Made by a program: the position numbers and the translations under genes. From an uncultured Alphaproteobacteria bacterium (GTDB lineage: Bacteria > Pseudomonadota > Alphaproteobacteria > CAAGCB01 > CAG-977): a stretch of 62,381 bases of DNA. This document shows positions 3,354 to 44,734 of the stretch, piece after piece. The stretch is taken from NCBI GenBank assembly GCA_944393745.1, contig CALYBD010000010.1, positions 1-62,381 on the forward strand, in the 5' to 3' direction. The number at the start of each line of letters is the position of its first letter. The first letter of the stretch is position 1. Under the pieces are notes generated by a model. It did not search any database, was not told where the DNA came from, and saw only the letters and a program-made list of their open reading frames with translations.

Positions 3354-5324
3354 TTGAGCAAAGAAGAAGAAATGAAACAGGCCAAAAAATGGCTGGGCGA
3401 AAATGCCGATGCCGTTGCAAAGTGGGCTGTCGAAATAACGGAAGAGTTAACTCATTCGGGGGCTTTTTATACGAAAGAGGAATTGTATACCGCTTTGACG
3501 GATTCTCTGCCTTTGTTGACCCCCGAACGAACAGGGATACCGGATTTGTCCGCCGTGCCCGAAGGCCGGATCGCCCGACGTATGATTGTTGCCAATACGG
3601 CGGCGGCCGTTATGAAAAATTCTTTGTCCCGCGATTTTGAAACGCCGCAGGGAGTACAGACGCGCTATACAACGGATTCCTTGCTGCAGGCCGAACAGAC
3701 AATTTTTACGCAGGCTGCCGAAATGACCGCAAAACCCACTGACGGCCAGCCGTATGCGGATTTAAACGATATTAAAAAAACCGTTGATCAAATGGCGGAC
3801 GTGATTGTTGTCGGTTCAAATTATACGTTTGATATGCCGGCCGAATATCTGAAGGTTTTTGATGATTTTCTAAAACCGGCAAACCTGCGCATTGCCAACG
3901 GTCCGCCGGGATCGGGAAAATCAACGTTGGCGCAGGGATTGTTGTTTGCTTTGACCAAAGAGGCCATTGAAAACGGACACGAAGTGCCGGATTTTTATGC
4001 TTCCGCTCCGTCCGAAAAAGCTGCGGCAGATATTGTGAACGATATGAATTTAATGAAGCACTTCTGCCTTGCTGGGGGTGCCGAAGAAATTGCGGAACGT
4101 ATGCCCAAAGTAAACGGTGCGGCTTCTTTGGACGAAATGATCGGACAGCTGCAATCCGGGCGGATCAAACCGGGATCCGTTTTGTTGATTGACGAAGCCG
4201 GGTTGATGGGAGCCAAACAGACGGCGGCTTTGCTGACGGCAGCCAATAAACGGGACGTTCGTTTGTTTATGGTGGGGGATAATCTGCAGATCCCGCCCAA
4301 AATGGCGGGAAACGGTTTTGATCAGCTGTTGCAGAATAAAGACGAGCTGGGACTGCAGACTTGTTCGCTTCGGGTTATTCTGCGTCAAAAGACCGAAAAA
4401 GAATCCGATTGGACCATTGATATTCGCGAAGATAATGCCTTAAAGGCGTTGCAAGGATATGCGAACCGCCGTTATACGGGATACTTTTTTACCGAATCGG
4501 GACAACTTACGGTTCGTTGTACGGATCAGGGGCGGGAAGAACGAGGTGATCCCGGCCTGCAGATGCAGGAAGACAAAGAAGCCGTTTATGCCCGTTTGAC
4601 AAAAGATTTTATCCGTTACAGACGCGAATGTCCTGCCGGGTCTTATGTGGTTATGGGAACGGACGAAGAATCGGCCCGAGATCTGAACCTGTATATGCGG
4701 CGCGAAATGATTGCCGACGGTCTGATCAAAAATGTGAAGAATTACGGAACGCCGGATCAACCGTTTGAATTGGGCAAAGGCGATACGCTGATTTTGAACA
4801 GCCCTGTAAAAATGAAGGCTTCGGAACGTGTTGATGTAGAGGAAATACAGGCGGGAACACAGTTGCAGATCGCCGGTGAAAAGGACGGAATGCTGATTGT
4901 GCGCCGCGGGGATCAGTGTTTTGACTGTTCGCCGCAGGCTTTGTGCAAAAATGCGAAATACGGGCTGGCATTACCGCTTTATCAGGCGCAGGGACAGTCA
5001 AAAGATCGCGCTTTTCTGGCCGTGGATAAGGTCGGGTGCATGGACAAAGTTTACGGCGGCGTTGCTTTTTCGCGCCATGTTCGGCAGATGTCGGCGTATG
5101 TGTCAAAACAGGCGTATCCGACGCTTGAGGCACTGGCTTCCGAAATGTCCGTGTTCAGAACGCGCCAGCCTTTGATTTCTGATAAAAACGGGTGTGAAAT
5201 CTTAAAAGAACAGCCCCGCCGGACAGAAGAAAAAGTTGCCGCCGATTTAAAACGGCAGGCCGGATCCGAAAAACCCGCGCCAAAAGATGTTTTATTAAAG
5301 AACAGGCTGATGAAGCTGCGTTAA
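3354..5324 (+). CDS. RecD/TraA-like SF1 helicase or AAA-type ATPase
   Basis: 656 residues. Superfamily 1 motifs are visible in order: Walker A GPPGSGKST near residue 184, Walker B VLLIDEAG near 277, motif III VGDNLQIPP near 307, an Arg-Gln-Lys motif near 344, then YQAQGQSKDRAFLAV and VAFSRH near 545-580. The closest families I can name are RecD2 and the helicase part of TraA/MobA relaxases, but no relaxase histidine cluster is present. The ~170 N-terminal residues are not recognised. The start is taken as TTG at 3354 after a GGGGAA stretch; ATG 3372 is an alternative. Two small genes follow at once, so the three probably form an operon. Its substrate is unknown. Confidence 0.75.
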   Translation: MSKEEEMKQAKKWLGENADAVAKWAVEITEELTHSGAFYTKEELYTALTDSLPLLTPERTGIPDLSAVPEGRIARRMIVANTAAAVMKNSLSRDFETPQGVQTRYTTDSLLQAEQTIFTQAAEMTAKPTDGQPYADLNDIKKTVDQMADVIVVGSNYTFDMPAEYLKVFDDFLKPANLRIANGPPGSGKSTLAQGLLFALTKEAIENGHEVPDFYASAPSEKAAADIVNDMNLMKHFCLAGGAEEIAERMPKVNGAASLDEMIGQLQSGRIKPGSVLLIDEAGLMGAKQTAALLTAANKRDVRLFMVGDNLQIPPKMAGNGFDQLLQNKDELGLQTCSLRVILRQKTEKESDWTIDIREDNALKALQGYANRRYTGYFFTESGQLTVRCTDQGREERGDPGLQMQEDKEAVYARLTKDFIRYRRECPAGSYVVMGTDEESARDLNLYMRREMIADGLIKNVKNYGTPDQPFELGKGDTLILNSPVKMKASERVDVEEIQAGTQLQIAGEKDGMLIVRRGDQCFDCSPQALCKNAKYGLALPLYQAQGQSKDRAFLAVDKVGCMDKVYGGVAFSRHVRQMSAYVSKQAYPTLEALASEMSVFRTRQPLISDKNGCEILKEQPRRTEEKVAADLKRQAGSEKPAPKDVLLKNRLMKLR

Positions 5325-5342: not shown

Positions 5343-5771
5343 ATGTCGGAAGAAAACCGCATTTATAACTTTGGAAAGTATGTTACCTCTTCGGAAGAAA
5401 TTGCCGAAATCTTTTTTTTCCTTAAGCAAATGGAATCGGTGCTGTCTTTTCCGCCAGATGAATCCGTTGATTTTCTGGTAGAAAAGCAAACGGCTGTTTC
5501 GGGGTATGTTTCACGTATTAAAGCTTCTTTGCGTCAATTTATGGAAAAAGCGTACCGGATCGATCCGGATCTGGCGGAAAAAGGAACTTGTGCGGGAAAA
5601 GCAGTCGAAATACTTGACGAAATGAAAAAAATTACGTTTTATTTCCGTGATGCGGCTTTGCAGCTGCCGGCAGAAAAGTTAAAAGATAATCTTTTGCGTG
5701 CCGCGGCTTTGGCAAATCAGTTGCCTGCAGTGATTGCGGCTCTGGACGCCGGCGAAGACGAAATCAAATAA
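5343..5771 (+). CDS. Hypothetical helical protein
   Basis: About 142 residues, not recognised. It is acidic and predicted almost entirely helical, with no signal peptide, membrane segment or cysteine motif; the single Cys is in EKGTCAGKAVE. ATG 5343 is preferred over ATG 5325 because AGGGAA lies about ten bases upstream of it, while 5325 directly abuts the helicase stop codon. The stop overlaps the next ORF's upstream ATG, so translation is probably coupled to both neighbours. The length and composition suggest a small adaptor, which is inference only. Confidence 0.65.
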   Translation: MSEENRIYNFGKYVTSSEEIAEIFFFLKQMESVLSFPPDESVDFLVEKQTAVSGYVSRIKASLRQFMEKAYRIDPDLAEKGTCAGKAVEILDEMKKITFYFRDAALQLPAEKLKDNLLRAAALANQLPAVIAALDAGEDEIK

Positions 5772-5788
5772 TGCCGAAAGAGGTAAGT

Positions 5789-6130
5789 ATGGCCGAAAAA
5801 CAAACAGGACCGGAACAAGAGGGCTTTTACGATATTTTGCAAAACGGGGCGGGAGATCTGCTGATCTCGATTCGTGCGCGCGCCGGTGAACCTGATCACC
5901 CTCAGATTGTTTACGACGGCGGGAAACATGCGTTGCTGTATCGTCAGCACGGTTTTTCCATTACGTTGGATTTTATTCACCCTGATGCTCGGGCGCCGTT
6001 GGCCAAGGCCGAATCCGTCCTGATCGTTGAATTTGAAGGCGGTGAACTGATTCGCGAATATGAAGTCCCTGTCCGTTTTGTTAAAAAACTGCCGTTATCG
6101 CCGGAAAATCTGCCGGCTTTGCCGCAGTAA
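5789..6130 (+). CDS. PDHP-family small protein, copy 1
   Basis: 113 residues of unknown function. It starts at ATG 5789, which has a strong AAAGAGG ribosome binding site; ATG 5771, overlapping the previous stop, is the alternative. It shares one fold-length pattern with the products at 27320 and 38153: YDILQNGAGDLL near the start, then RARAGEPDHP, a [YF]DG turn, a central LD-P segment, a VLIVE strand, and Y-VPVRFVKKLP near the end. It appears to be a compact alpha/beta cytosolic protein with no catalytic motif that I recognise. It ends 50 bases before nuoA. Confidence 0.7.
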   Translation: MAEKQTGPEQEGFYDILQNGAGDLLISIRARAGEPDHPQIVYDGGKHALLYRQHGFSITLDFIHPDARAPLAKAESVLIVEFEGGELIREYEVPVRFVKKLPLSPENLPALPQ

Positions 6131-6179: not shown

Positions 6180-6557
6180 ATGGAAAACGTAACTCACGCT
6201 TATTTTTATTTTTTGATTTTTTTCTTAACGGCTCTGCTGGTCAGCGCGATGATGCTGAAGTTTGCCGCGTATCTGAGCATCAAGCTGTTCGGCCGGCAAA
6301 AAGAGATTGTCAAAAATGACGGCTATGCCGGCGGGTTTTATATCCTTTCCAGCGAAACCAGCCGCTTTCCGTTGCGCTTTGTCTTTATTGCGTTGTTGTT
6401 TGTTTTGTTTACCGCCGAATTTTTGTTGCTGTTGCCTTGGGCAATGTCGTTGCATTTAACGCGGGGACAGGGAATCGTTACGGCCTTGTTGGTCGTTGTG
6501 CTGTGGGGAATCGGTTATTTTTACGAATACAAAAAAGGGGCGCTGGAATGGAAGTAA
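6180..6557 (+). CDS. nuoA: Complex I subunit A (divergent)
   Basis: 125 residues with three membrane segments, first gene of the complex I operon. NuoA packs against NuoH and NuoJ beside the quinone site. The family's YECG loop reads GYAGG (residues 48-52), so its Cys/Glu are missing. In the helix motif FDVE the Asp (E. coli D79) is Thr78 while the Glu is kept as E80, in LFTAEFLLLLPW. The ribosome binding site before ATG 6180 is weak. Identification rests on the operon position plus the LF--E----PW helix. Confidence 0.88.
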   Translation: MENVTHAYFYFLIFFLTALLVSAMMLKFAAYLSIKLFGRQKEIVKNDGYAGGFYILSSETSRFPLRFVFIALLFVLFTAEFLLLLPWAMSLHLTRGQGIVTALLVVVLWGIGYFYEYKKGALEWK

Positions 6558-7012
6558 AACAAGACGGCTGGATCGACAGGCTGCATCAATACGGAGTCGC
6601 CGCGGTGGCTTTTCAGTCTCTGGCTTCTTGGGTATGCGCGCAGGCACAGGCCGGCATGCCTGTTTCGACAGGGTGCTGTTCTTGTTTTTCTCAAATGCAC
6701 CGCGCCGGCATGGAAGGCGTTTTTAATCCCCATCATGCCGATGTGCTGGTTGTCAACGGCGCTTTGAGTACGAAAGCGGCTTTTATCGCACGTCGCCTTT
6801 ATGATCAGATGCCTGCGCCGAAATATGTGATTGCTTTCGGAAATTGTGCCGTGAACGGCGGATTGTTTGCAAAATCCTATGCAATCACTTCTGCCCGGGA
6901 TATTCTGCCGGTCGACGTGTGCGTGCCGGGTTGCCCGCCCGATACGGCCGCTTTGTCCGCCGGTATAGAAAAGTTGCGCCAAATAATCCGAAACAGAATC
7001 AGAGGGAAATAA
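6548..7012 (+). CDS. nuoB: Complex I subunit B, N2 cluster carrier
   Basis: 154 residues. NuoB holds the terminal [4Fe-4S] cluster N2, which passes electrons to quinone. All four ligand positions are present: the tandem pair in STGCCSCF (near residues 43-44), FGNCAVNGG and VPGCPPD. ATG 6548 lies inside the end of nuoA (10-base overlap) and gives the normal family length; the longer upstream reading is out of family. The N-terminal ~40 residues are less conserved. Electron transfer as far as N2 therefore looks intact, in contrast to the degenerate quinone pocket of NuoD and NuoH. Confidence 0.95.
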   Translation: MEVKQDGWIDRLHQYGVAAVAFQSLASWVCAQAQAGMPVSTGCCSCFSQMHRAGMEGVFNPHHADVLVVNGALSTKAAFIARRLYDQMPAPKYVIAFGNCAVNGGLFAKSYAITSARDILPVDVCVPGCPPDTAALSAGIEKLRQIIRNRIRGK

Positions 7013-7013
7013 A

Positions 7014-7595
7014 ATGGCGCTTTCTGTTTATAAAACTCAGGAAGAATTCGGACAGTTTGTTTGTCTGCATTTTGCCAAACAGGATATTCCCGAATGCGGC
7101 GTTGTGTCGGGTATGCTGACTTTGCGTGTTTTGCGTGCCGCTTTGCGCCGTGTGTTACAGTTTTTGCGTGATGATCCGGCGTGCCGTTTTTCTCAGCTGA
7201 CCGATATTTGCTGTACTCACTATCCCGACCGGCAGGAATGTTTTATGCTGACGTATCATCTGTTAAGTCCTTTGATGAACCGCCGATTGCGTCTGGAATT
7301 GACGACCGAAGACGACGTGGCCGTTTTGTCTGCGGCATCGATTTTTTCGAACGCCGTGTGGTATGAACGCGAAATACGGGAAATGTTCGGTGTTTCTTTT
7401 GAAGGTCACCCCGATTTGCGTCGATTGCTGACGCAAGACGAAATCGGCGTTTATCCGTTGCGCAAAACTTTTCCGGCTTGCGGTCGGCAGCATTTAATTT
7501 ACGATGAATCAAAAGAACAGTGCGTTTTTGTACGCCGTTCGGATCAACCGGCCGGTCATTTTTTTGGCGTTGACTTAAATCAGGAAGAAGAATGA
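7014..7595 (+). CDS. nuoC: Complex I subunit C (30 kDa)
   Basis: 193 residues. NuoC is a peripheral-arm structural subunit lying against NuoD. The signature is well preserved: WYEREIREMFGVSFEGHPD followed by LRRLLT and YPLRKTFP near residues 115-150. Good ribosome binding site AGAGGGA before ATG 7014. Its stop overlaps the nuoD start in an ATGA junction, a sign of coupled translation. NuoC and NuoD are separate genes here, as is usual in alphaproteobacteria. Confidence 0.95.
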   Translation: MALSVYKTQEEFGQFVCLHFAKQDIPECGVVSGMLTLRVLRAALRRVLQFLRDDPACRFSQLTDICCTHYPDRQECFMLTYHLLSPLMNRRLRLELTTEDDVAVLSAASIFSNAVWYEREIREMFGVSFEGHPDLRRLLTQDEIGVYPLRKTFPACGRQHLIYDESKEQCVFVRRSDQPAGHFFGVDLNQEEE

Positions 7596-8755
7596 CAACG
7601 TTGCAGGAAAGCTATTTTATGAATATTGCTCCGGAACCGGCGGCGGGGATCGGTATGTGCCGGCTGGTGGCGCAGTTGGACGGGGAAAAAGTCTGCCGAA
7701 TTGATCCGCATATCGGGTTTTCTCATCGCGGTATCGAAAAACTGATGGAAGAGCATAACCTGCTGCAGGGGTTGGTTTTTACGGATAAGTTAAATCGTTC
7801 GGCGCCTTTTTCCTGTGTGCATTCTTTGGTGTTGGCGGCAGAAAAGCTGTTGGGGGTTAAAGCCCCGAAACGAGCCGAATGTATCCGGGTGATACTGGCC
7901 GAAACGGGTCGGATTTTATCGCATTTGCGCGCAACGGCCAATCTGGCGGCAGATACGGGGACGGATATTGTTTATCCGGTTGTGCGCAAAGCCTGTCAGC
8001 AAGCTTATGCTTTACTGGATACCGTATGTGTTTCCTGTCCGCCGGCGGTATTTATCCGCCCGGGCGGAATAAAAAACGATATTGCGCCGCAGTCAAAAGA
8101 ATTGATTTTTAACTGGCTGACAAAAGAACTGCCGCCCGTTTTAATCGAAATTGAAGAACTGTTGACAGAAAACAGGATTTTTAAATCCCGGACCGTCGGC
8201 ATCGGCGTGATCGGGGAACAAGACGCCGTTGCCGCCGGTTTTTCAGGCGTGAATTTGCGGGCTTGCGGCGTTAAGTGGGACTTAAGAATTTCAGAACCGT
8301 ATGAGATTTATGATTCGCTTTCTTTTGATATGCCGGTCAATCCCGAAGGGGATTGTTATGCGCGTTATTTACTGCGCATCTTTGAAATTTATCAGTCAAT
8401 GTCAATCATTCGGCAGATTTTGGAAATGTTGCCCGACGGCGATGTTCTTTTGCCGGATTTTTGCATGGGGGAAAAAGCGGATTCTTTGACAGCACTCAGT
8501 CGCCGTTTTGAACTGTACGGGACGGGAACGGCGCTGTCGGCCGGCGAAGTATATGCCGCAACGGAATCTCCGTTGGGCGAGTTCGGCGTGTTTTTAATTT
8601 CAGACGGTTCCGAAAAACCGTACAGATGTCATTTCCGTTCTGCCGGTTTTCCGGTCATGCAGGCGCTGGATCTGTTGACAAAAGGATATGATTTGGCGGA
8701 TGTGCGGGTTATTTTAAGTTCTTTGAACATTTTGACAACGGAGACAGACCGGTGA
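7592..8755 (+). CDS. nuoD: Complex I subunit D (49 kDa), quinone ligands lost
   Basis: 387 residues, full length. The family framework is clear: DPHIGFSHRGIEKLMEE, LAAEKLLGVKAP, GEVYAATESPLGEFGVFLIS, PYRCHFRSAGF and the terminal TDR. The two residues that hold the quinone headgroup in ordinary complex I (bovine H59 and Y108) are not there. HPAAHG reads PAAGIG (Ile20 at the His position) and DRLDYVS reads DKLNRSA (Arg69 at the Tyr position). The two sites are 49 residues apart, exactly as in the bovine protein. No NiFe hydrogenase cysteines are present either. The stop overlaps the nuoG start, leaving no room for nuoE or nuoF. Confidence 0.93.
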   Translation: MTTLQESYFMNIAPEPAAGIGMCRLVAQLDGEKVCRIDPHIGFSHRGIEKLMEEHNLLQGLVFTDKLNRSAPFSCVHSLVLAAEKLLGVKAPKRAECIRVILAETGRILSHLRATANLAADTGTDIVYPVVRKACQQAYALLDTVCVSCPPAVFIRPGGIKNDIAPQSKELIFNWLTKELPPVLIEIEELLTENRIFKSRTVGIGVIGEQDAVAAGFSGVNLRACGVKWDLRISEPYEIYDSLSFDMPVNPEGDCYARYLLRIFEIYQSMSIIRQILEMLPDGDVLLPDFCMGEKADSLTALSRRFELYGTGTALSAGEVYAATESPLGEFGVFLISDGSEKPYRCHFRSAGFPVMQALDLLTKGYDLADVRVILSSLNILTTETDR

Positions 8756-10707
8756 TCAGTTTATGGATAGACAATAATCCCGTTTTGGCGCAGGAAGGCG
8801 ATTCCGTTTTACAGGCGGCTCTGTCGGCGGGAATTGAGATTGCGCATCTGTGTGATGAAAGCCAATCGGGATCCGAAAACCGGTGCGGTTTATGTCTGGT
8901 TGAAATAGCAGGCAAAGATGATCTTGTCCCGGCGTGCCGTACGTTGGTGGAAGAAGGTATGAAAGTTCTGACCAAAACACCGAAAACAGAAAAAGCTGTT
9001 CGCGCCAGAGCGGCGGAGTTGTTTTCTTCTCATCCCGCCGATTGTGCCACCTGCGTTAAAGCCGGTAATTGCGATATTCAAAAAATATGCGCGCGATATC
9101 GTCCCGAAATTCATTCTGAAAACGTTGTTTGCAAAACACAAAAGCTGTTGGATTGGATAGACGTTACGCCGCAAAAATGCATTCGTTGCGGACGTTGTGC
9201 CGCTTTTTTGAAAAAAGCCGGAATTATTCGGACGGATACGGATGTACCGCCAAAGCATTGCCCGCCGTTTTTATTGTCCGGTACTTTGATTGATTTGTGT
9301 CCTTCGGCAGCTTTGACGGACGCTTTGACATCAAAACTGACGCGGTCGTGGGAAACAATAAAAATCAACAGTATTGACGTAACGGACGCTGTCGGAGCCG
9401 GTATCAAAGTGGAAACGACAAAACAGCATGAAATTGTCCGCATCAGCCCTGCGCCGGGTTGCCTGATTTCGGATAAAGCGCGTTTTTGTTCGGACGGGCT
9501 GCACATTAATCGTCTGGACAGGCCTTATGCGCGGATTAACGGACGACTGAAAGAATGTTCGTGGACGGAAGCTTTTGTGACGATTGCTTCAAAAATAAAA
9601 GAGACGGCGCCTGAAAAAACAGCGGCTTTGATCGGTGATTTTGCCGATTGCGAAAGTATGTTGGCTTTGAAAGATTTGTTTGCGTTGATCGGCGCCAAAG
9701 CTATTGATGCCCGTACGGACAGCCAGATGTATTTGGATTTAAACAGCCGTCAGTCCCGTTTGTTCAATACACCGTTTTCGCGGATTAAAGACGCCGACTT
9801 TTTATTAAGCGTCGGCGCACGGATCAGTGATTTGGCGCCGGCTGTCGGCTGGCAACTGCGTCAGAATAAAATGCCGAAAGCTTTTGTCGGATTGAACGAA
9901 GAGGCCGATTTGCCCTATGAAGTTCTGGGGGCAACACCGCAGGTGTTAAAGGATATATTAAACGGATCCGGGATCGGAGCCGTGATGTTAAAACGCGCCC
10001 GAAAGCCGATGATTGTCGTCGGTCCGTCCGTGTTGCGGCGCAATGATGCCGCGGCCGTAATGGATCTGATCTGTCGGATTTGCGCAAAATATGATGTAAT
10101 CCGCAGCGATTGGAACGGATATAATTTTTTAAGTCAAAAAACGACTTTGATCGGCGCGGCCGAATTAGGGATGATTACTGCCGAACCGTTGCGGCCGAAA
10201 ATTGAAAAAGGAGACTTTGATTTCGTTTATCTGTTAAACGAAGATACCGTTTCGCGTTCTCAATCGGGGAATGCCTTTACGGTATATCAGGGGGTTTATG
10301 CGTCCCGGGCCGCACAGGACGCCGATGTGATTTTACCGGGACTGGCCTTCAGCGAGAAAAAAGCGACTTACGTTAATGCCGAAGGACGGGCGCAAAGTAC
10401 GGCAGTTGTTTCTCCGCCTTTCGGCATGGCGCGCGAAGACTGGAAAATTTTGCGGGCTTTGTCCGAATATCTGGGGACGGCGCCGCTGCCGTATGACGAT
10501 CTGGAGGATATCCGCGATTATCTGGCGGGGGAAAACGTTATCTTCTATAACCGCGGGGAAATTACCGCCGCGGACAATGTTTCCTTCGGAACACCCGGAG
10601 AAACGGAAGAAACACCGTTTTACGCCCGTGACGATATCTTTGATGACGAATTGTGCCGTCAATCGGAATATGCGGTCGTGTTGAAAAAAGGGTTGTTATC
10701 GAAATGA
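8752..10707 (+). CDS. nuoG: Complex I subunit G (75 kDa), Fe-S and molybdopterin-fold subunit
   Basis: 651 residues, GTG start in a GTGA overlap with nuoD. Fe-S ligands are complete for the proximal chain: a [2Fe-2S] set C-x10-C-x2-C-x13-C near residues 34-63, the H-x3-C-x2-C-x5-C set HPADCATCVKAGNC near 98-111, and CIRCGRC with a later LCP Cys for N4. The rest is the molybdopterin-oxidoreductase fold, truncated compared with E. coli NuoG. No N7 motif was seen. With nuoE and nuoF absent, this subunit is the most exposed electron entry point. A soluble ferredoxin or flavodoxin donor is a reasonable inference. Confidence 0.93.
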   Translation: MISLWIDNNPVLAQEGDSVLQAALSAGIEIAHLCDESQSGSENRCGLCLVEIAGKDDLVPACRTLVEEGMKVLTKTPKTEKAVRARAAELFSSHPADCATCVKAGNCDIQKICARYRPEIHSENVVCKTQKLLDWIDVTPQKCIRCGRCAAFLKKAGIIRTDTDVPPKHCPPFLLSGTLIDLCPSAALTDALTSKLTRSWETIKINSIDVTDAVGAGIKVETTKQHEIVRISPAPGCLISDKARFCSDGLHINRLDRPYARINGRLKECSWTEAFVTIASKIKETAPEKTAALIGDFADCESMLALKDLFALIGAKAIDARTDSQMYLDLNSRQSRLFNTPFSRIKDADFLLSVGARISDLAPAVGWQLRQNKMPKAFVGLNEEADLPYEVLGATPQVLKDILNGSGIGAVMLKRARKPMIVVGPSVLRRNDAAAVMDLICRICAKYDVIRSDWNGYNFLSQKTTLIGAAELGMITAEPLRPKIEKGDFDFVYLLNEDTVSRSQSGNAFTVYQGVYASRAAQDADVILPGLAFSEKKATYVNAEGRAQSTAVVSPPFGMAREDWKILRALSEYLGTAPLPYDDLEDIRDYLAGENVIFYNRGEITAADNVSFGTPGETEETPFYARDDIFDDELCRQSEYAVVLKKGLLSK

Positions 10708-11714
10708 ACGATTTTTTTGCCTCTTTGATGGAAAATGAAATCACGCCCTTTTTACACGAGCTGTTGCCGGCCGGCGGTATGATGCTGCGTGCCTGTTTAT
10801 ATTGCGTTGTTATTTTGGCCGCGGCGTTCTGTGTGTTCTGGGGAAAAGAAAAAATACGTGCCGGAATAGAAATGCGTCCCGGAAAATCGGCTCTCAGTCT
10901 TTTACGCCGGATTTGCTCTACGGCATTAAAGATTCCGGCCGTTCCCGATCCGGCTCAAAAAGTGTTGTTTGTTGCGGCGCCTTTGTTTGCCTTTGTCTTT
11001 TCGTTGTTTTTCTTTTTCTTTCTGCCGGTGAACAAAGGGTATTTTCTGCACCCCGATTTCAGTTTGCTTTATTTGTTGTTTGCCGCGTCCTGCGGAACGT
11101 ATGCTTTTATTGCCGGCGGGTGGAGCAGTACGACGCGTTTCAGTTTTTTCGCAGCCGTGCGCATGATCGCCCAGTCTTTATGCTGCCAGTCGGTTCTGGC
11201 TGTTGTCGTGATGACAATCCTGATGACGGCCGGAGCGCCGGATCTGTATTCCGTCATCAAAGCGCAAAGAAAAATATGGTTTGTCGTGCCGCATTTCCCG
11301 CTGTTTATTTTATATATGCTGTCGGTGGCAATGCTGTTGGGACTGGCACCGTTTAAAGGGCCGAAATCCGAAAGAGAACTGGCCGGCGGTATTTATGCGG
11401 AATACGGTGGCAGTCTGTATTTATTGTTTATTGCCGGTGAAAATATTTTGCTGTTGTTGTGTGCGGCACTGGGCAGTGTTTTGTTCTTGGGCGGGACGAT
11501 ACCGTTAGTTGGAACGGCAGTCTTGCCGGCATTTGTCTGGTTGTTGTTAAAGACGGGATTGCTGGTCTTTGTTTTCATTTTGATGGATTGCACTTTGCCG
11601 TGTTACCGGACGGATCGGCTGATGAATGTGTGTTTTAAGGTTTTTTTGCCGTTTGCTTTGGTGTGGTTGGCGGTTACGGCGGGATACCTGTATTTGTTGC
11701 AAACGGGAGGATAA
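10704..11714 (+). CDS. nuoH: Complex I subunit H (ND1-like), divergent
   Basis: 336 residues with about eight membrane helices, starting at ATG 10704 in an ATGA overlap with nuoG. Recognisable landmarks are AGGWSSTTRFSFFAAVRMIAQ, a degenerate PF-GP-SE-ELAGG loop, AEYGG and the C-terminal LKTG helix. Compared with E. coli NuoH, the SYE glutamate (E157) is Gln in SLCCQSVL. PFDLPEAE reads PFKGPKSE, turning D213 and E216 into Lys. The GPNRVGP loop is lost. These residues line the quinone chamber and the start of the proton path, so that function is doubtful. Confidence 0.9.
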   Translation: MNDFFASLMENEITPFLHELLPAGGMMLRACLYCVVILAAAFCVFWGKEKIRAGIEMRPGKSALSLLRRICSTALKIPAVPDPAQKVLFVAAPLFAFVFSLFFFFFLPVNKGYFLHPDFSLLYLLFAASCGTYAFIAGGWSSTTRFSFFAAVRMIAQSLCCQSVLAVVVMTILMTAGAPDLYSVIKAQRKIWFVVPHFPLFILYMLSVAMLLGLAPFKGPKSERELAGGIYAEYGGSLYLLFIAGENILLLLCAALGSVLFLGGTIPLVGTAVLPAFVWLLLKTGLLVFVFILMDCTLPCYRTDRLMNVCFKVFLPFALVWLAVTAGYLYLLQTGG

Positions 11715-12062
11715 ATGAACATGAAAAAAATTCATTTTACTCTTTTTGCGGATATTTTACGCAGTTTGCTGGTTGCTTTTCGTTATGTCGTCGGCTTGGG
11801 TGCCGGACAAAAAATAAAAGTCGAGGAAGAACCGAAGCCGGGATATCCTGATGTTGATGCCGAAAAGTGCATCGGGTGCAAACTTTGCGCAAAAATATGT
11901 CCGTCGCAGGCAATAGAAGTGGAAACGTTTGTACAAAACGATCGCAATCCGATCGAGTTCAGATGGATCGGCGAACGCTGTGTTGCTTGCGGTTTGTGCG
12001 TTGAATCCTGTCCTCGAAAGGCATTGCGGATTAAAAAGGAAAAGACAAATGTACGCGGTTGA
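11715..12062 (+). CDS. nuoI: Complex I subunit I, 2[4Fe-4S] ferredoxin-type
   Basis: 115 residues, shorter than the usual ~160 because the N-terminal extension is reduced. NuoI carries clusters N6a and N6b between NuoG and NuoB. Both motifs are complete: CIGCKLCAKICPSQAIEVE near residues 53-71 and CVACGLCVESCPRKAL near 93-108. Strong ribosome binding site GGAGG right before ATG 11715. The nuoJ start lies within its last codons. Confidence 0.95.
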   Translation: MNMKKIHFTLFADILRSLLVAFRYVVGLGAGQKIKVEEEPKPGYPDVDAEKCIGCKLCAKICPSQAIEVETFVQNDRNPIEFRWIGERCVACGLCVESCPRKALRIKKEKTNVRG

Positions 12063-12543
12063 GTTTTATGTTTTTGCCGTTTTGGTTCTTTCGGCGGCAT
12101 TTTTGTCGGTCAGTGTCCGGCATATTTTGTATGCGGTTTTCTGCCAGATGCAGGCAATTGTTGCCGTGGCCGGTATTTTGGCGGGACTGAACGCCAAATT
12201 TGTCAGTTTTGCTTTGTTGTCCATGTCGGCGGCATCAATGCTGGTTTTTTTGATTTTTGCTTTGATTGTTTTTGATTTTCGCCGAACGCAGGAATTTGTT
12301 CCCGAAAAAGCTTCTGCGGTTTCGCTGGTGTTTTTTGTTTTGCTGTGTTTGCAGACGGTGTACCTGTTTTTTAAACCGCAGTGGCCGAACGAAGAAATTG
12401 CTCCTGTTTTTTCTTTGCCGGTGTTGGGCGATATTCTGTATGCCGATTACGGTATATGCGTTTTGATTTTTGCAGCCTTGGTCTTGTCGTGCATGGTGGG
12501 TCTGTCGGCTTTGTTGGTCGGGAAAAAAGTACAGGAAGGATAA
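12049..12543 (+). CDS. nuoJ: Complex I subunit J
   Basis: 164 residues with five hydrophobic helices. The start ATG 12049 overlaps the end of nuoI by 14 bases and follows an AAGGA site. Identification is by operon position, size and the start EFYVFAVLVLSAAFLSV, which resembles NuoJ. NuoJ forms part of the junction between the quinone site and the antiporter-like modules. Sequence conservation is low, like the other membrane subunits here. Confidence 0.85.
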   Translation: MYAVEFYVFAVLVLSAAFLSVSVRHILYAVFCQMQAIVAVAGILAGLNAKFVSFALLSMSAASMLVFLIFALIVFDFRRTQEFVPEKASAVSLVFFVLLCLQTVYLFFKPQWPNEEIAPVFSLPVLGDILYADYGICVLIFAALVLSCMVGLSALLVGKKVQEG

Positions 12544-12549
12544 GACGTT

Positions 12550-12858
12550 ATGACAATCAACATTCCCGTTATCCTGACGGTCAGTTCGTTTCTGGTTTTT
12601 TTCGGCTTGTGGGGCGTTTTGCGTCATCGAAGCGATTTGATGCGGGTATTGTTGGCTTTACAGCTGATTTTTTTGGGATCGTTATTTAATTTTTCGATGG
12701 GAAGCGCTTTGTTCTATGAACCTTCCGGGTTGATTTTTTCTTTGTTCATGGCTTGTCTGAGCGGTGTGCAGATCGTTGTGTCGCTGGCATTGTTTTTACT
12801 TTATTTTAAAAAACACAATCATCTGACGATAGATCGTGTCGATACGATGAAAGGGTAG
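12550..12858 (+). CDS. nuoK: Complex I subunit K without its two membrane glutamates
   Basis: 102 residues with three membrane helices, normal NuoK length. The C-terminus IDRVDTMKG and the GLWGVL-R-R start match the family. The two intramembrane glutamates known to be needed for pumping (E. coli E36 and E72) are both glutamine: Q38 in LLALQLIFLG and Q74 in SGVQIVVSLAL. The spacing of 36 residues is identical to E36-E72, which supports the alignment. Helices 2 and 3 contain no acidic residue at all. Confidence 0.92.
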   Translation: MTINIPVILTVSSFLVFFGLWGVLRHRSDLMRVLLALQLIFLGSLFNFSMGSALFYEPSGLIFSLFMACLSGVQIVVSLALFLLYFKKHNHLTIDRVDTMKG

Positions 12859-12865
12859 GCGGAAA

Positions 12866-14689
12866 ATGGTTTTTGCTGTTCTTTTGCCTTTTTTTGCCGC
12901 GTGTTATGTTTTTGCGGCGGCTTTTTTAAAAAAGCGGACGTTTGCCTGGGAAATAGGAACCGCGGCGACCGGTCTGGCTTTTTTAAACATTGTTTCCATG
13001 GCGTTTAAAAATTTTGTTCACGGACAGGTTTACAGCGTTTTGCTGCTGCCCTTTTTAACGTTGGACGGAAAGACGTATGACTGGAGAGTGCATTTGGAAA
13101 CAACCGAAATATTTTTGGTCGTTTTTATCGTTTTTTCCGCTTTGATGTGTTTGTTGTTTGCCAAAGATTTTCTGCAACCCGAAAAAATGAACAGCTTTGT
13201 TGTTTTTTTACTGGGATTGACGTCTTTTTTGATTATTGTGATCGGCGCCAAAAATATGTTCCAGTTTTTTGTCGGCTGGGATTTGTCGGTTTTGTTTGCC
13301 TATTTATTGTTGATGCTGTTTCATGAAAAGCAGGCCGTGCGCCGATCCGGCGTGAATTTTCTGATCTGGCATACACTAAGCGACGTGCCGCTGTTTTGTG
13401 CGTTTTATATGCTGGCCGGCAAAACGGACGGTTTCTTTGTGGCTTCTTTTACGGCGGATTCCTTTTTGGCTTTTCAGGGAACGGAAACGGTTGTTTTTGC
13501 CGTTTTGATTTTGTTAAGCGTTTCTGCAAAATTGTTTTTGTTCGGCACGAATATTCTGATTGCGCAAACGGCCGGCATTTCCGTTCCGGCTTTGGCTTTT
13601 ATTGCGCCTGCCGCGTTGGGAGGACTGGGCGTTTATGTGTTGTATCTGTTCTTTCCGTTTGTGGACGACAATCAGACGGTGCGAACGATTTTTACGGTTT
13701 GGGGAATATTGACGGCACTGGGCGGATTGATGACGGCGTCGGCGCAGACAAATATCAAGGTTTTGCTTTGCCAGTTGCTGATGGGGCAGTTCGGTTTTGT
13801 TTTAACGGTTTTCGGCCTGATTGACCGAGACACGGCTTTTTGTGCTTATATTGCTTTGATTACGCCGATGACGGGGTTGATTTTATGCGCCGGTACGGTT
13901 ATTCAGGCACTGCAGGGAGAAGAAGAATTGCCGCGCATGGGAGGCCTGAAAAAATATCTGCCGTTTTCATTTTGGCCGATGCTGTTGTTTTCCGTATGTT
14001 GTGTCGGTTTTCCGCAAATCGGCAATTCTGCGGTTATTTTGGATATGTATGCCGTTTTAAAGGCTCGTTCTTTACCGGCGGGCAGTTTTTTCCTGACAGT
14101 GTATTTGTTTGCTTTGGCGTTTGTTTTTGCGCGGTTGTTGTTTCGGATTTTTTTGGCGGAAGAAAAATTTTCCGCTACAACGGCGGCCAGGATTTGTCGG
14201 CCGTCAAAAATTGAATCGCTGCCGTTGATGGTATTGCTGCTGTTGTCTTTTTTTCAGAATAAAGTTTTTGAACAATCCGTTTTGCCGAATTTGACGGGAG
14301 CCCTGTCGATCGGCGTTTTGGTGTCTTTACTGGCGGGGGGTTGCGGTTTGCCTGTCGGAATTTACTGTTTTTCCAAAGCGGAAAAAGCAGGCGGATTTCG
14401 TTTGTCCGGGGGGATTTTTCAAAAAATCGCTCATTTTTGTCAGAAAGGGTTTTATTTAACCGATTTTTATCAGGCTGTTTTTGTGCGCCCGTTTATGGCG
14501 CTGGCGGATTTTGCCTGGCGTTTTGCCGGCGCGGAGCTGCTGACGGAAAAATTACCGCGGGCATTAAAGAAAACAGCCGAAAATCTGCAAAAAACCCATT
14601 CGGGAAAGCCGTCTGATTTTCTGTTGTGGTCTTTGGCGGGACTGTTTGTTTTAATTTTTTCGCTGTTGCCGTTGTTGGCGGGAGAATGA
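12866..14689 (+). CDS. nuoL: Complex I subunit L, antiporter-like, degenerate
   Basis: 607 residues, many membrane helices, full NuoL length including the C-terminal part. The frame is seen in FFVGWDLSVLFAYLL (E. coli E144 as Asp), VSAKLFLFG (K229 kept), QTNIKVLLCQLLMGQFGF and PRMGGLKKYLPF. Lost features include the WLPDAM-GPTPVSALIHA block (here ISVPALAFIAPA, no His) and the H-x-x-x-H/K342 helix. The GFFSKDEIL lysine K399 is also gone, in a stretch reading FPQIGNSAVILDMY. The proton channel is therefore unlikely to work as in E. coli. Confidence 0.9.
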   Translation: MVFAVLLPFFAACYVFAAAFLKKRTFAWEIGTAATGLAFLNIVSMAFKNFVHGQVYSVLLLPFLTLDGKTYDWRVHLETTEIFLVVFIVFSALMCLLFAKDFLQPEKMNSFVVFLLGLTSFLIIVIGAKNMFQFFVGWDLSVLFAYLLLMLFHEKQAVRRSGVNFLIWHTLSDVPLFCAFYMLAGKTDGFFVASFTADSFLAFQGTETVVFAVLILLSVSAKLFLFGTNILIAQTAGISVPALAFIAPAALGGLGVYVLYLFFPFVDDNQTVRTIFTVWGILTALGGLMTASAQTNIKVLLCQLLMGQFGFVLTVFGLIDRDTAFCAYIALITPMTGLILCAGTVIQALQGEEELPRMGGLKKYLPFSFWPMLLFSVCCVGFPQIGNSAVILDMYAVLKARSLPAGSFFLTVYLFALAFVFARLLFRIFLAEEKFSATTAARICRPSKIESLPLMVLLLLSFFQNKVFEQSVLPNLTGALSIGVLVSLLAGGCGLPVGIYCFSKAEKAGGFRLSGGIFQKIAHFCQKGFYLTDFYQAVFVRPFMALADFAWRFAGAELLTEKLPRALKKTAENLQKTHSGKPSDFLLWSLAGLFVLIFSLLPLLAGE

Positions 14690-14692
14690 ACC

Positions 14693-16135
14693 GTGACATA
14701 TTATTCCTTACCTTCCGTTGTTTTGTTCTTACCGCTGCTGGGGGCTTTGTTTTTGCTGTTTATCCGCGGGGACGAACAAATTGTTTTTCAAAACAGCCGT
14801 CATGTTGCTTTGCTGATCACGGCGTGTGTGTTTATTTTGTCTTTTGTGTCATTTCTTTTTTATGAAGCCGATCCCGAAAAGTATTTAACACAGGCTTTTA
14901 CGCATTCGGTTCAGACCGATTGGCGCGTCGGCATTGATGCGCTGAGCATGATTTTTGTTTTATTGATTTCTTTTTTAACGGTATTGTCCGTTTGTGTCAT
15001 CAGGCGCCATGTGTCGTTTTGCGTCAGAGAGTTTTCTTTTCTGGTTTTAACGGCGGAAAGCTTTATGTTGATTGCCGTTTGTTCGCAAAATATGTTTCAA
15101 TTTTTTGTTTTTTGGGAAGCAGCGGTTCTGCCGTTATTTTTAATGACGGCAGTCTGGGGGGCGGAAAAGCGTATTTTTACGGCCTATAAGTTCTGCTTTT
15201 CGGATCTTTTGGGAGCAATTTGTTTAATGCCGGCGTTGTTTTTGCTTGCACAAAAAGCCGGATCTGCCGATTATGCCGCTTTGGCGCGGCTGAAACCGGA
15301 CGAAACAGAACAGACAGTTTTGTTGATTTGCTTTCTGGCGGCTTTGGCCTTTAAAGCGCCGTTGTTTCCTTTTCATGCCTGGTTAAGCGACACACAGGCC
15401 GAAGCGCCGGTGCCGACGGGAATTTTATTGTGCGGCATTTTTTCAAAATTAATTTTTTATGCTTTTTTGCGTCTGGCTCTGCCCGCATTGGAAAGCGTGC
15501 CGGATACATGGCGTTTGTTGTTGTTGATCTGGGCTGCTTTTTCGGCCGTTTACGGAGCACTGATTACGTTAAAACAAGTGGAAATAAAAAAAATCGCCGG
15601 TTTTGCTCATCTGGCTCAAGTCGGTTTTCTGGGCGCAGGCTTGTTTTGTGCGGCTCCGGCAACATTGCAAAGTCTGTTGTTTTTATGCGTGGCGCAAGGA
15701 TTGGCTTTTACGGTTTATTTAATGTCGGCAGGGGCTTTGTACGCGCGTTTCAATGATGCCGGCATGAAAGAACCGACCGGATTGATGAAATTATTCCCGT
15801 ATCTGGGAATGACTTTTTTCTTGTCGTGTCTGGCTGTTTTGGGCGTTCCGCCGTTAATGCCGTTTACGGGACAGTTTCTGATTTTTTATGACGTGTTCGG
15901 GCAATCAAAAATTGTGGCGTTTTTCCTGCTGTTGTCGGTTGTTTTGTTGTATTCGGCTTTTTTCAGGCTGTTTACGCGACTGCTGTTCGGAGAACCGCCC
16001 CAACAAAGTGCGGGGCTTCCGGATATGAGCTGGCGGGAAAAAACGGCGGCAATTGTGTTCGGATCTGTCTTTTTGATTTTGTCTGTTACGCCCGGGATCG
16101 TTTTTGATTTGGCCCGTCAGGCAATCGGCGGATAA
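14693..16135 (+). CDS. nuoM: Complex I subunit M, antiporter-like
   Basis: 480 residues, GTG start three bases after nuoL. NuoM is the middle antiporter-like module. Kept: E144 in FFVFWEAAVLPLFLM, K234 in LAFKAPLFPFHAWLSD and K265 in GIFSKLIFYAFLR. Changed: the terminal acidic residue of the channel, E. coli E407 in GEFMIL, is Gln in PFTGQFLIFYD, and the AHGLSAAGLF histidine is Gln in AQGLAFTVYL. It is thus closer to the canonical sequence than NuoL but lacks the exit carboxylate. Confidence 0.93.
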   Translation: MTYYSLPSVVLFLPLLGALFLLFIRGDEQIVFQNSRHVALLITACVFILSFVSFLFYEADPEKYLTQAFTHSVQTDWRVGIDALSMIFVLLISFLTVLSVCVIRRHVSFCVREFSFLVLTAESFMLIAVCSQNMFQFFVFWEAAVLPLFLMTAVWGAEKRIFTAYKFCFSDLLGAICLMPALFLLAQKAGSADYAALARLKPDETEQTVLLICFLAALAFKAPLFPFHAWLSDTQAEAPVPTGILLCGIFSKLIFYAFLRLALPALESVPDTWRLLLLIWAAFSAVYGALITLKQVEIKKIAGFAHLAQVGFLGAGLFCAAPATLQSLLFLCVAQGLAFTVYLMSAGALYARFNDAGMKEPTGLMKLFPYLGMTFFLSCLAVLGVPPLMPFTGQFLIFYDVFGQSKIVAFFLLLSVVLLYSAFFRLFTRLLFGEPPQQSAGLPDMSWREKTAAIVFGSVFLILSVTPGIVFDLARQAIGG

Positions 16136-16147
16136 AGGAAAATAAAA

Positions 16148-17578
16148 ATGAATGAAGCATTAAAAAGTATATTGCCCGTCGTACCGGAAATTCTGCTTTT
16201 GTTCTTTGCCGTTCTTTCTTTGCCGGCCGGTTTGTATGCGCCGGCGTCGAAATCAAAATCAATGGCAGACAGGTTTGTTTACGCGGGATTATTGTCGGCC
16301 TTTGGCGCATTGTGCCTGATTGATGTGCCGGCCGAAGGACTGTTTTCGGTTTTTCCCGGGGTGGGGCTGGACAGGTTTTCCTTATGGATGAAAAAAATTT
16401 TGCTGATCGGTGCCGTAATTGCATTGGCTTTTGGTGCGGATTGGTTGAAATATAAAAAGTATTCGCGTTTTGAATACGCTCCGCTGTTGGCTTTTTGCGT
16501 GACAGGCATGATGCTGACGGTTTCCGCACAAACATTTTTGGTGCAGTTCCTCGGGCTGGAAATGATGCATTTTCCGTTATTGTTTCTGACGGCCTATAAA
16601 CGCCAGGGCGAACGATCGACCGAGGCCGGAACAAAATACGTTGTGATGGTTTTTTTAAGTTCCGGATTATATTTGTTCGGCGTTTCTGTTTTATACGCTT
16701 GTCTGGGAACGTTGGATTTTGCCAAATTGGCGGCGACCGACAAACAGGAAATTATGCCGGCATTGCTGTGGGGACTGTCGTTTGTGACGGCGGGGCTTTT
16801 GCTGAAAATCGGTGCGGCGCCGTTTCATTCGTGGGCTGCCGATGTATACGAAGGGGCGCCTTCACCGGTGACGGCTTTGTTTGCCATGATGGTTCGTCTG
16901 CCCGTTCTTGCCGCCTTGGCTGAGATTGTTTCGAAACCTTTCGGCGATCTGGATTTTTATTGGCGTCCCGTTTTGGGCACAGCTGCCGTTTTGTCTGTTT
17001 ATATCGGCGGATTCGGTGCGATCGTACAAACAAACATTAAACGTCTGACAGCCTATACGGTAATTGTGTTAAACGGCTTTGCTTTGTCGGCGTTGGTTGT
17101 GAAAAGTACGGTATTATTATTGTTTTTAATGACAATTGATCTGATTTTGTTGGCGGGATTGTCTGCCGTTGTTTTATCGTTGCGCATCGGTGACGAGCTC
17201 AGTGAAGAAATTCGCGTTTTATTCGGACAGGGACAGACAAAGCCTTTGCGCGGCGGATTGTTTTCGTTGATTTTTTTGGGGTTGGCCGGCGCGCCGCCGT
17301 TTGCCGGATTTTGGACGCGTTTCGGATTGTTCAAAGACACGGCGGTTAACGGCATGATACCTTTATGTATTTTTCTGATGTTGGGCGGGTTGTTGATTAT
17401 GTATGTTTATTTAAAAATCATCCGTCAGATGTATATGGTTTCGGCCAGAGAAGATCTGTCTTTTGCGCCGATGCCGATGAAAGCCGTTATAACGGCTGCA
17501 GCGGTTGTTTCCGTTTTTTCTTTTGCAGCGGCGGAACCGTTGCTGAGCATTATGCAAACGGCCGGAATGCTTTTTTAG
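16148..17578 (+). CDS. nuoN: Complex I subunit N, antiporter-like
   Basis: 476 residues, last complex I gene. The best conserved of the three large membrane subunits: QFLGLEMMHFPLFLLTAY keeps the E133-type glutamate, and LKIGAAPFHSWAADVYEGAP keeps K217. The two other channel lysines are replaced by Arg: K247 in MMVRLPVLAAL and K395 in FAGFWTRFGLFKD. Charge is thus retained here, unlike in NuoK, NuoH and NuoM. birA follows after nine bases, the usual alphaproteobacterial order. Confidence 0.94.
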   Translation: MNEALKSILPVVPEILLLFFAVLSLPAGLYAPASKSKSMADRFVYAGLLSAFGALCLIDVPAEGLFSVFPGVGLDRFSLWMKKILLIGAVIALAFGADWLKYKKYSRFEYAPLLAFCVTGMMLTVSAQTFLVQFLGLEMMHFPLLFLTAYKRQGERSTEAGTKYVVMVFLSSGLYLFGVSVLYACLGTLDFAKLAATDKQEIMPALLWGLSFVTAGLLLKIGAAPFHSWAADVYEGAPSPVTALFAMMVRLPVLAALAEIVSKPFGDLDFYWRPVLGTAAVLSVYIGGFGAIVQTNIKRLTAYTVIVLNGFALSALVVKSTVLLLFLMTIDLILLAGLSAVVLSLRIGDELSEEIRVLFGQGQTKPLRGGLFSLIFLGLAGAPPFAGFWTRFGLFKDTAVNGMIPLCIFLMLGGLLIMYVYLKIIRQMYMVSAREDLSFAPMPMKAVITAAAVVSVFSFAAAEPLLSIMQTAGMLF

Positions 17579-17587: not shown

Positions 17588-18322
17588 ATGACAATACGGT
17601 CGGTGCAGGGGTGGTCTTTAATCGAAAAAGAAGAAACGGACAGCACAAACGAAGATGTCAAAAAACTGCCGCCGGGATCAGATAAAACCGCGGTCTGCGC
17701 GTGTATTCAGACGGGCGGGCACGGACGTATGGGGCGCCGTTGGATCAGTCCGGCAGGGAATTTATATGTGTCGTTGTGTTTGGAAAAAATTCCGCCGGCA
17801 CAGGCGGGAATTTACAGCTTTTTGGCGGCGGTTGCTTTGATGCAGGCAATCGAAAAACTTTGCCCCGGATTACAGATGCACTGCAAATGGCCGAACGATT
17901 TGTTGATTAACGGCAAAAAAGTGACGGGTATTTTACTGGAAACCGACGGTGTGGACAGATTGATAGTCGGGATCGGCGTTAATTTAATTCCCATAGACGA
18001 AAGCCGATTGTTATATCCGGTGACGTCTTTGCGTCAGGAGGGATTTGATGTTGATAAAACGGATTTGCTGGAAGCTTTGCTGGAAAGTTTCGGTCAATGG
18101 CAAATACGTTTGAAAACACAGGGAAAAGAACCGGTATTATCTGCTTGGAAACGAAAAGCTTGCGGGATCGGCGGGTCGGTAACGGTTAATTTGCCCGACA
18201 GACAGTTGCGCGGAACTTTTTACGGTCTTGATCAGGACGGTTGCTTTTTGCTAAATAAAGAAGGGGAAATTTTAAAAATTACGGCCGGAGATATTTTTTT
18301 CGGCCGGACGGAAAAGAATTAA
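17588..18322 (+). CDS. birA: Biotin--[acetyl-CoA-carboxylase] ligase, catalytic domain only
   Basis: 244 residues. It attaches biotin to carboxylase carrier domains via biotinyl-AMP. The biotinyl-AMP loop is TGGHGRMGRRWISPAGN near residues 39-55 and the lysine motif is KWPNDLLINGKKVTGILLE near 99-117. The N-terminal DNA-binding domain of bifunctional BirA is absent, so it is an enzyme and not a repressor. It is transcribed with the nuo genes upstream and RNase J downstream. Confidence 0.94.
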   Translation: MTIRSVQGWSLIEKEETDSTNEDVKKLPPGSDKTAVCACIQTGGHGRMGRRWISPAGNLYVSLCLEKIPPAQAGIYSFLAAVALMQAIEKLCPGLQMHCKWPNDLLINGKKVTGILLETDGVDRLIVGIGVNLIPIDESRLLYPVTSLRQEGFDVDKTDLLEALLESFGQWQIRLKTQGKEPVLSAWKRKACGIGGSVTVNLPDRQLRGTFYGLDQDGCFLLNKEGEILKITAGDIFFGRTEKN

Positions 18323-18337
18323 ACGGGAAGAAACAAA

Positions 18338-20011
18338 ATGACCGACGGAACAAAAGAATATACGGACGTCCCCGACAAAGGTTTGTTTTTTGTCGCTTTG
18401 GGCGGTGTCGGCGAAATCGGAATGAATTTTTATCTTTACGCCTGCGACGGCGACTGGTTGGCCGTGGATTGCGGCGTGGGCTTTGCCGGCGACAGGTTAC
18501 CGGGCATTGATATGCTGTTGCCCGATCCGTCTTTTGCCGAAAAAATCGCCCCGCGGTTAAAGGGGTTGGTCATTACGCATGCGCACGAAGATCACATCGG
18601 CGCGGTGGCAACGTTTTGGCCGGGGCTGCGCTGTCCGGTGTACGTTTCGGCCTTCGGCGCTGAAATGTTGGAAACCCGTTTGGATGAAGCCGGGCTGCTG
18701 GGGCGTGTCCCTGTCCGCATCTTTGAACAGGGTGATCTGTTGGATTTAAAGCCGTTTGAAATTGAACTGTTTTCTATTAATCATTCTATACCGGAGGCTT
18801 CTTCTTTGTTGATCAAAACGCCGTACGGCAATGTATTTCATACGGGGGACTGGCGTTTTGATGAAGATCCCGTTGTCGGTGACCCTGTGGATTACAAAGC
18901 TTTGCGTGCTTTGAAAAAAGAAAAAATTTTGGCTTTGGTCGGGGATTCGACGAATGTTTTCGTTGAAGGCGATATTCCTTCTGAATCCGCGGTTAAGACG
19001 GCTTTGACGGAATTGTTTGCCGCGTACAAGGGAAAACGTTTGATCGTTACGTGTTTTGCTTCGAATGTCGGGCGAATAGAAAGTATTGCCGAAGCAGCGG
19101 AAAAAAACGGTCGGACGGTATGTTTGCTGGGGCGTTCTTTGTGGCGGGTCGAAGGCGCGGGACGCGCTGCCGGATATTTCAGGGGCGTGCCTGTTTTCCT
19201 GACCGAAGAAGAAGCCGCGGAACATGATCCGTCCGAAATTCTTTATCTGTGTACGGGCTGCCAGGGGGAACCCAAAGCCGCTTTGTCCAATATTTCTTAC
19301 GGTACCGGCGCCGTTCAACCGGTTAAAGGTGATGTCGTTGTTTTTTCTTCGCGTGTTATTCCCGGAAACGAACAGGCGATTGCCAATATACAAAACCGCT
19401 TTATTGCCAAAGGCATAGAAGTCATTACCGTTAAAGAGGCTTTGGTCCATGTGTCGGGTCATTCCGGACGCAAGGATATGGCAAAGCTGTATGAATTTCT
19501 GAAACCGAAAATTGCCGTTCCCGTTCACGGAGAGGCGGCTCATTTATATGAACATGCCGGTTTGGCCGCGGACTGCGGCGTTGAAAAAACCGTTATCGTC
19601 AAAGACGGTGATGTCCTTTGTCTGAGTTCCGAGGCACCGGAAATTATCGGCGAAGTCAAAACCGGTGTTCTGGCGCGGGACAGAAAACAAATTATTCCTT
19701 TAAATGCCGGCGTCTTAAAACAGCGCCGTCGCATGATTGACGAAGGAACGGTCGTTGCAACGGTGGTGCTGGATAAAAAAGGAATGGTTTCGGGGCCGGT
19801 TCAATTTTCGGCCGTCGGGCTGATCGAAAATACGGATCCGGTTTTGCAACAAATGGATGCGGCGGTAAAACAAGCCGTGGATTTATTGGCGGCAGAGAAA
19901 CGATCTGATGATCAAATCGTTGCAGATACCGTGAAATCCGCCGTGCGTAAAGTTGTCATGGAAACGCACGGCCGCCGCCCGATGGTAGAAACGCATCTGG
20001 TCAGAATATAG
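18338..20011 (+). CDS. rnj: Ribonuclease J
   Basis: 557 residues, a beta-CASP metallo-beta-lactamase RNase with endo- and 5' exonuclease activity. The zinc motif THAHEDHIGA is near residue 77. Further landmarks are VFHTGDW, GDSTNVF, CTGCQGEPKAAL, FSSRVIPGNEQ, VSGHSGRKD and VPVHGEAAHL. The length is normal and the C-terminal domain is present. In alphaproteobacteria RNase J typically follows nuoN-birA, as here, which shows that this operon end is ancestral. Confidence 0.96.
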   Translation: MTDGTKEYTDVPDKGLFFVALGGVGEIGMNFYLYACDGDWLAVDCGVGFAGDRLPGIDMLLPDPSFAEKIAPRLKGLVITHAHEDHIGAVATFWPGLRCPVYVSAFGAEMLETRLDEAGLLGRVPVRIFEQGDLLDLKPFEIELFSINHSIPEASSLLIKTPYGNVFHTGDWRFDEDPVVGDPVDYKALRALKKEKILALVGDSTNVFVEGDIPSESAVKTALTELFAAYKGKRLIVTCFASNVGRIESIAEAAEKNGRTVCLLGRSLWRVEGAGRAAGYFRGVPVFLTEEEAAEHDPSEILYLCTGCQGEPKAALSNISYGTGAVQPVKGDVVVFSSRVIPGNEQAIANIQNRFIAKGIEVITVKEALVHVSGHSGRKDMAKLYEFLKPKIAVPVHGEAAHLYEHAGLAADCGVEKTVIVKDGDVLCLSSEAPEIIGEVKTGVLARDRKQIIPLNAGVLKQRRRMIDEGTVVATVVLDKKGMVSGPVQFSAVGLIENTDPVLQQMDAAVKQAVDLLAAEKRSDDQIVADTVKSAVRKVVMETHGRRPMVETHLVRI

Positions 20012-21560: not shown

Positions 21561-21561
21561 A

Positions 21562-42662: not shown

Positions 42663-44734
<2,072 letters not shown>

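Follow-up and report, generated by a model that had tools for sequence, protein, structure and literature searches.

The nuo operon of an uncultured alphaproteobacterium is, on the evidence of sequence comparisons, that of an alphaproteobacterial complex I, inherited vertically, which has lost its NADH module, its quinone site and its Glu-based E-channel. The reduced complex has been kept across the order as intact frames under purifying selection, with its cluster ligands and its central Lys/Glu pairs remaining. We tentatively propose that this order-wide complex I, free of quinone and NADH and with a conserved Gln axis, could be a new machine, either ferredoxin-driven or engaged in redox-free ion handling.

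Operon layout and conservation in the order

The stretch of DNA analysed, hereafter the window, is 62,381 nucleotides long. Residue numbering and residue roles follow E. coli complex I. The order was sampled with 12 genomes from 3 genera; the relatives compared are metagenome bins, in which genes may have been missed, and the window genome was searched protein family by protein family. Positions 6180-17578 carry nuoA-B-C-D-G-H-I-J-K-L-M-N on the forward strand, and all 12 frames were uninterrupted, including those that the earlier note had called intact. Profile matches thus identified 12 of the 14 complex I subunits in canonical order, nuoC (7014-7595) among them; every subunit was matched, most with scores far under the NCBIfam equivalog cut-offs.

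We found the nuo operon in 11 of the 12 genomes, representing all three genera. The NuoK-family search gave a match in 9/12 genomes; in G011 NuoK was present though below the sensitivity of that search, and in G007 nuoL-M-N were seen at a contig edge. Neither NuoK nor NuoD was found in G005, where the operon is lost. In G010 the operon (L019, 6203-12953) is further reduced, without NuoG and NuoL and with a NuoM of only 314 aa. One member of the order is a sheep-rumen metagenome bin. A NuoH search of genome contigs returned a single close relative, whose genome seems to be that of G003.

In the three genera the operon is flanked by a gene for a 119-aa protein upstream and by birA and RNase J genes downstream (17588-20011, forward strand, after nuoN in the window). 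Since gene order and flanks match those of canonical alphaproteobacterial operons except for nuoEF, birA following nuoN there too, we infer vertical descent. The 119-aa protein, encoded just upstream of nuoA (5771-6127), has no Pfam or NCBIfam match; it is 86-96% identical across the order, with a dN/dS of about 0.02 within the genus, and has paralogues of ~50% identity elsewhere in related genomes. In several genomes, nuo is also preceded by a gene for an AAA_30/TraI-type helicase and, after it, a small conserved gene (3354-5321). Elsewhere in the window we noted two tandem paralogues (20562-22458) with short His/Glu motifs of the HExxH type (HEGRH, HECTH), possibly metalloproteases, and, near the window start (235-726), short coding-like units that recur on both strands (DLIPCPEDVKPVAPPP repeats).

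Both NuoK glutamates are replaced by glutamine

The nuoK frame (12550-12858) is intact and matches the Pfam Oxidored_q2 and NCBIfam NuoK models. The claim that both essential NuoK glutamates had become glutamine with their spacing preserved was borne out by sequence and by structure. Q38 (12661-12663) and Q74 (12769-12771), both encoded by CAG and 36 residues apart, stand opposite Glu without gaps in an alignment with E. coli, nine alphaproteobacteria and Paracoccus (8qby_K). In an AlphaFold model (mean pLDDT 77) compared with E. coli NuoK (3rko; Z 12.4), residues 2-91 superposed on residues 1-89 with an offset of ~2, so that 38 and 74 fall on 36 and 72. Neither alignment placed an acidic residue at the E36 and E72 sites. 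The interior of TM2 and TM3 is devoid of acidic residues, as had been noted for helices 2 and 3, and D33 sits at the TM2 boundary.

Q74 is invariant in 9/9 relatives and is one of the 8 invariant columns of NuoK, in a set whose members are 36-81% identical. Position 38 is Gln in eight of the nine and His in the remaining one. NuoK of G010, which lies outside this set, has Ser/Tyr at the two Glu sites. Across independent genomes the Gln sites are encoded by both CAA and CAG. Misalignment was ruled out by the sequence and structural alignments, and sequencing error because different genomes show the same changes and use both CAA and CAG. Codon reassignment was not supported, conserved Gln positions being still Gln, and the search of the genome for a canonical NuoK copy gave a single NuoK match.

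Loss of coupling residues along the membrane arm

The other substitutions claimed along the charged axis were recovered by alignment as well. In NuoA (6180-6557), the Asp of the FDLE motif (D79) is Thr (6411-6413), and the loop Cys (YECGF) is replaced by Gly. In NuoH (10704-11714), E157 is Gln (11187-11189), a residue shared by 8/9 relatives and also by G010, and E216 is Lys (11364-11366), as in 9/9. In NuoM (14693-16135), E407 (15872-15874) is Gln. The E-channel acidic set (E157 and E216 of NuoH, D79 of NuoA, E36 and E72 of NuoK) is therefore not retained.

We found further losses by comparing canonical-invariant residues over the 12 subunits. NuoJ (12049-12543) has lost the YVGA pi-bulge motif of TM3. 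In NuoL (12866-14689), E144 is Asp; K229 and D178 are kept, and H254, H334, H338, K342, K399 and D400 are lost. NuoM keeps E144, K234 and K265, and its H322 (15617) and H348 (15695) are Gln, as at these sites in 10/10 and 9/10 cases, respectively. NuoN (16148-17578) keeps E133, K158, K217 and H224; K247 and K395 are Arg, and H305 is lost. Throughout the order, NuoM K234 and NuoN E133 are kept; NuoM E144 and NuoN K217 each show a single exception (Gln in G006 and Arg in G010, respectively), so the central Lys/Glu ion pairs of NuoM and NuoN are retained. In the antiporter-like subunits (NuoL/M/N), entry and central residues are kept, whereas exit-side residues are lost in all three, and a complete transmembrane proton path is thus not evident. 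Overall, charge has gone from the coupling relay and the exit sides, whereas the clusters and the central ion pairs persist.

The proton relay has been described as E157 (NuoH)-D79 (NuoA)-E36/E72 (NuoK), and D79N by itself drastically impairs pumping (PMC13324432); E407K in NuoM lowers the stoichiometry (PMC9271201). Since all these relay sites and E407 are changed, ordinary proton pumping via the known E-channel route seems very unlikely in this complex.

Quinone site, Fe-S clusters and electron-input end

In NuoD (7592-8755), both His of the quinone loop (GPQHPxxHG; 7628-7654) are lost, as in every member of the order, and the quinone-site Tyr, replaced in the window by the stretch NRS (within 7787-7807), is lost except in G001. 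NuoB (6548-7012) lacks the quinone-cavity loop RYDxxRFG by deletion and keeps the four N2-cluster Cys. NuoI (11715-12062) has lost its C-terminal extension and keeps all eight N6a/N6b Cys, which make up 8 of its 10 invariant columns. The NuoB and NuoI ligands of N2, N6a and N6b are kept wherever these subunits are present. NuoG (8752-10707) keeps the ligands of N1b, N5 (9031-9072) and N4 (from 9178), those of N4 and N5 being invariant wherever NuoG is present.

The window operon has no nuoE or nuoF between nuoD and nuoG or at any other place in it. The possibility that NuoE/F are encoded elsewhere was rejected, the only NuoF-like gene of the window genome adjoining [FeFe] hydrogenase genes. 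In the window NuoD we looked for the two CxxC motifs of [NiFe] sites and found none, which ruled out a group 4 [NiFe] hydrogenase. In G001 (genus g2), NuoE/F are present with their cluster Cys, including N3 of NuoF; the FMN/NADH motif of NuoF is destroyed and NuoG has lost its N1b ligands. The window's genus has lost NuoEF and kept N1b, G008 and G009 have lost both, and G010 and G011 have lost NuoG. Across the order, the electron-input end is pared back in steps.

Selection on the nuo genes

We estimated dN/dS pairwise (NG86) within the window's genus (g1), where dS is near-saturated. The nuo genes gave values of about 0.05-0.31, the lowest being those of NuoK (0.045-0.08 where dS was estimable); for comparison, RNase J gave 0.06-0.10 and birA 0.15-0.26. 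These values, far below 1, indicate purifying selection, and the Gln is conserved across the order. Within the genus, conservation was best for NuoK (80%), NuoJ (73%) and NuoL (70%) and worst for NuoI (46%), NuoB and NuoG (59% each). In canonical alphaproteobacteria, by contrast, NuoI, NuoD and NuoB are the best conserved, so that the order is inverted.

Metabolic setting

To our knowledge, the known quinone pathways need UbiA-family prenyltransferases. No prenyltransferase of quinone synthesis was found among the 12 genomes, where the UbiA-family protein of one genome, that of the window, was classified. A UbiA-family protein is absent from 6/12 genomes, including two congeners with intact nuo operons, and the only one of the window genome scored 192 bits as decaprenyl-phosphate phosphoribosyltransferase versus 33 bits as UbiA. 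Searches of the 12 genomes with E. coli CydA, UbiE, MenD and RsxD returned no homologue, one weak methyltransferase match aside. Cytochrome bd, fumarate reductase and Rnf were likewise not found in these genomes, an FrdB query giving two weak matches only (24-26% identity). Pyruvate:ferredoxin oxidoreductase (PFOR) and AtpA were both found in 12/12 genomes, AtpA at 60% identity and accompanied by a second copy. An operon for a trimeric [FeFe] hydrogenase resembling group A6 is present in the window genome. This gene content indicates a fermentative, hydrogen-producing metabolism, and the order appears to be one of gut alphaproteobacteria without quinones.

Besides the standard AtpA, located at G000:C6, the genome has a second F-type ATPase operon, which lies in the window (42795-49800) and has an N-ATPase-like order: beta and epsilon, then two small membrane proteins, then a, c, b, alpha and gamma. 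Both helices of its c subunit carry a Glu (LAEGYA, IIETSGIY).

Possible functions of the reduced complex

The earlier note had proposed a complex I that transfers electrons without ordinary proton pumping. The frames, the selection and the conserved Gln support a derived function without E-channel pumping; transfer from NADH to quinone does not hold, NuoE/F being absent, the quinone-site His and Tyr gone, and the quinone-synthesis prenyltransferase not found. Judging from these losses, any electron transfer must start from a donor other than NADH and end at an acceptor other than quinone. The note's alternative, a machine driven in a different way, may apply.

The reading that we prefer, with less than even confidence, is a repurposed ferredoxin-fed complex with a non-quinone acceptor near N2 and a membrane arm that does not pump by the known relay. 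Reduced ferredoxin from PFOR or from hydrogenase metabolism would feed the NuoG/NuoI clusters, and electrons would pass to the acceptor near N2. The membrane arm would not pump via E157-D79-E36-E72 and would have at most a weak or different coupling to ions, and Gln could maintain a polar, hydrated axis without proton movement. We favour this reading because the cluster ligands are so strictly retained. Against it, the operon is lost in G005, NuoK of G010 has Ser/Tyr, and in g2 the destroyed FMN/NADH motif of NuoF leaves an electron wire without an obvious terminal. The Fe-S clusters may also be kept for folding alone.

Redox-free repurposing is a possible alternative that we rate below the ferredoxin-fed complex: the membrane arm would act as an Mrp-like cation/proton exchanger, an ion leak or a scaffold, and the peripheral arm would be a structural cap pared from the outside in. 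The inverted conservation and the family f22, which lacks NuoI/G/E/F and yet keeps A-D, H and J-M, make such a pathway or scaffold nearly as plausible, and f22 counts directly against the ferredoxin-fed complex. The stepwise peripheral losses (NuoEF, N1b, NuoG) and the retained central Lys/Glu pairs point the same way, but the loss of exit-side residues in all three antiporter-like subunits does not, nor does the near-absolute retention of Fe-S ligands in the fast-evolving NuoI.

Slow decay of a useless complex I, shedding residues and subunits under relaxed selection, is improbable. The graded loss of NuoEF, NuoG and NuoL, the shortened NuoM of G010 and the missing operon of G005 would fit it; however, frames are intact in most genomes, NuoK is constrained to the level of RNase J, and the neutralised sites are fixed as Gln/Lys over order-level divergence. 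The low dN/dS, the invariant Q74 and the strict NuoI Cys refute simple decay for the window's genus, and for G010 slow decay could still hold. That the complex still pumps protons on scavenged quinone by means of compensating residues is very improbable: gut bacteria are able to take up quinones and the NuoM and NuoN central ion pairs are retained, but the quinone-site His are lost throughout, the NuoB cavity loop is deleted, the NADH module is absent and no cytochrome bd was found.

The coupling of redox chemistry to pumping through the E-channel is debated, the evidence coming mostly from point mutants. Here the relay was neutralised along with the quinone site and the complex then retained over order-level time, a natural experiment separating what complex I needs for its retention from what it needs for pumping, and pointing to a quinone-independent function of the membrane arm. 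If a new machine is indeed at work here, the similar quinone-less remnants of one or more other alphaproteobacterial lineages would turn it into an outcome that evolution has reached repeatedly.

Comparison with other lineages and known systems

In the open-licence literature, we found no account of a clade-conserved complex I with a neutralised E-channel. Among other reduced alphaproteobacteria, whose nuo operons are divergent, the families f22, f70 and f25 resemble the window in having lost the NuoD quinone-site His, which f103 keeps. In the two f25 contigs examined, only nuoC/D were recognised. In an RpoB tree, f22 and f70 fall together with the order at moderate support (94/85), beside the long E. 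coli branch, and f25 lies elsewhere, next to f103 and apart from f1; there may thus have been one shared His loss and one independent loss. NuoK of f22 is Q36/E72, so f22 shares the Gln at E36 and differs in keeping E72; it also differs in missing NuoG and in having as its only NuoI that of an Ech-type hydrogenase. The f22 genomes (L151, L152) carry, besides the quinone-less nuo operon, a group 4 [NiFe] hydrogenase (RVCGIC, DPCISC) adjoining NuoB/C/I-like genes.

The window complex shares with the alphaproteobacterial complex I of Paracoccus (8qby) its gene order, 12 subunits, fold, N2/N6/N4/N5 ligands and central ion pairs, and departs from it by the absence of NuoE/F and of the quinone-site His/Tyr, the neutralised E-channel and the lost exit residues. 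Complexes lacking the N-module are already known (PMC12361115). Archaeal Fpo and cyanobacterial NDH-1 likewise lack NuoE/F, and a non-NADH electron input is plausible for the window complex as well; however, they keep the acceptor site (phenazine or plastoquinone), whereas the window complex keeps NuoG and loses both the acceptor site and the E-channel. With the group 4 [NiFe] hydrogenases Ech/Mbh, the sulfane reductase Mbs and the Ehr complexes, a ferredoxin-type input and quinone independence could conceivably be held in common. Mbs and Ehr are not known to have a [NiFe] site in their NuoD-like subunit. The window complex differs from this group by its true NuoA/J/K/N, its nuo operon and its complex I ancestry, and by a NuoD free of [NiFe] Cys motifs.
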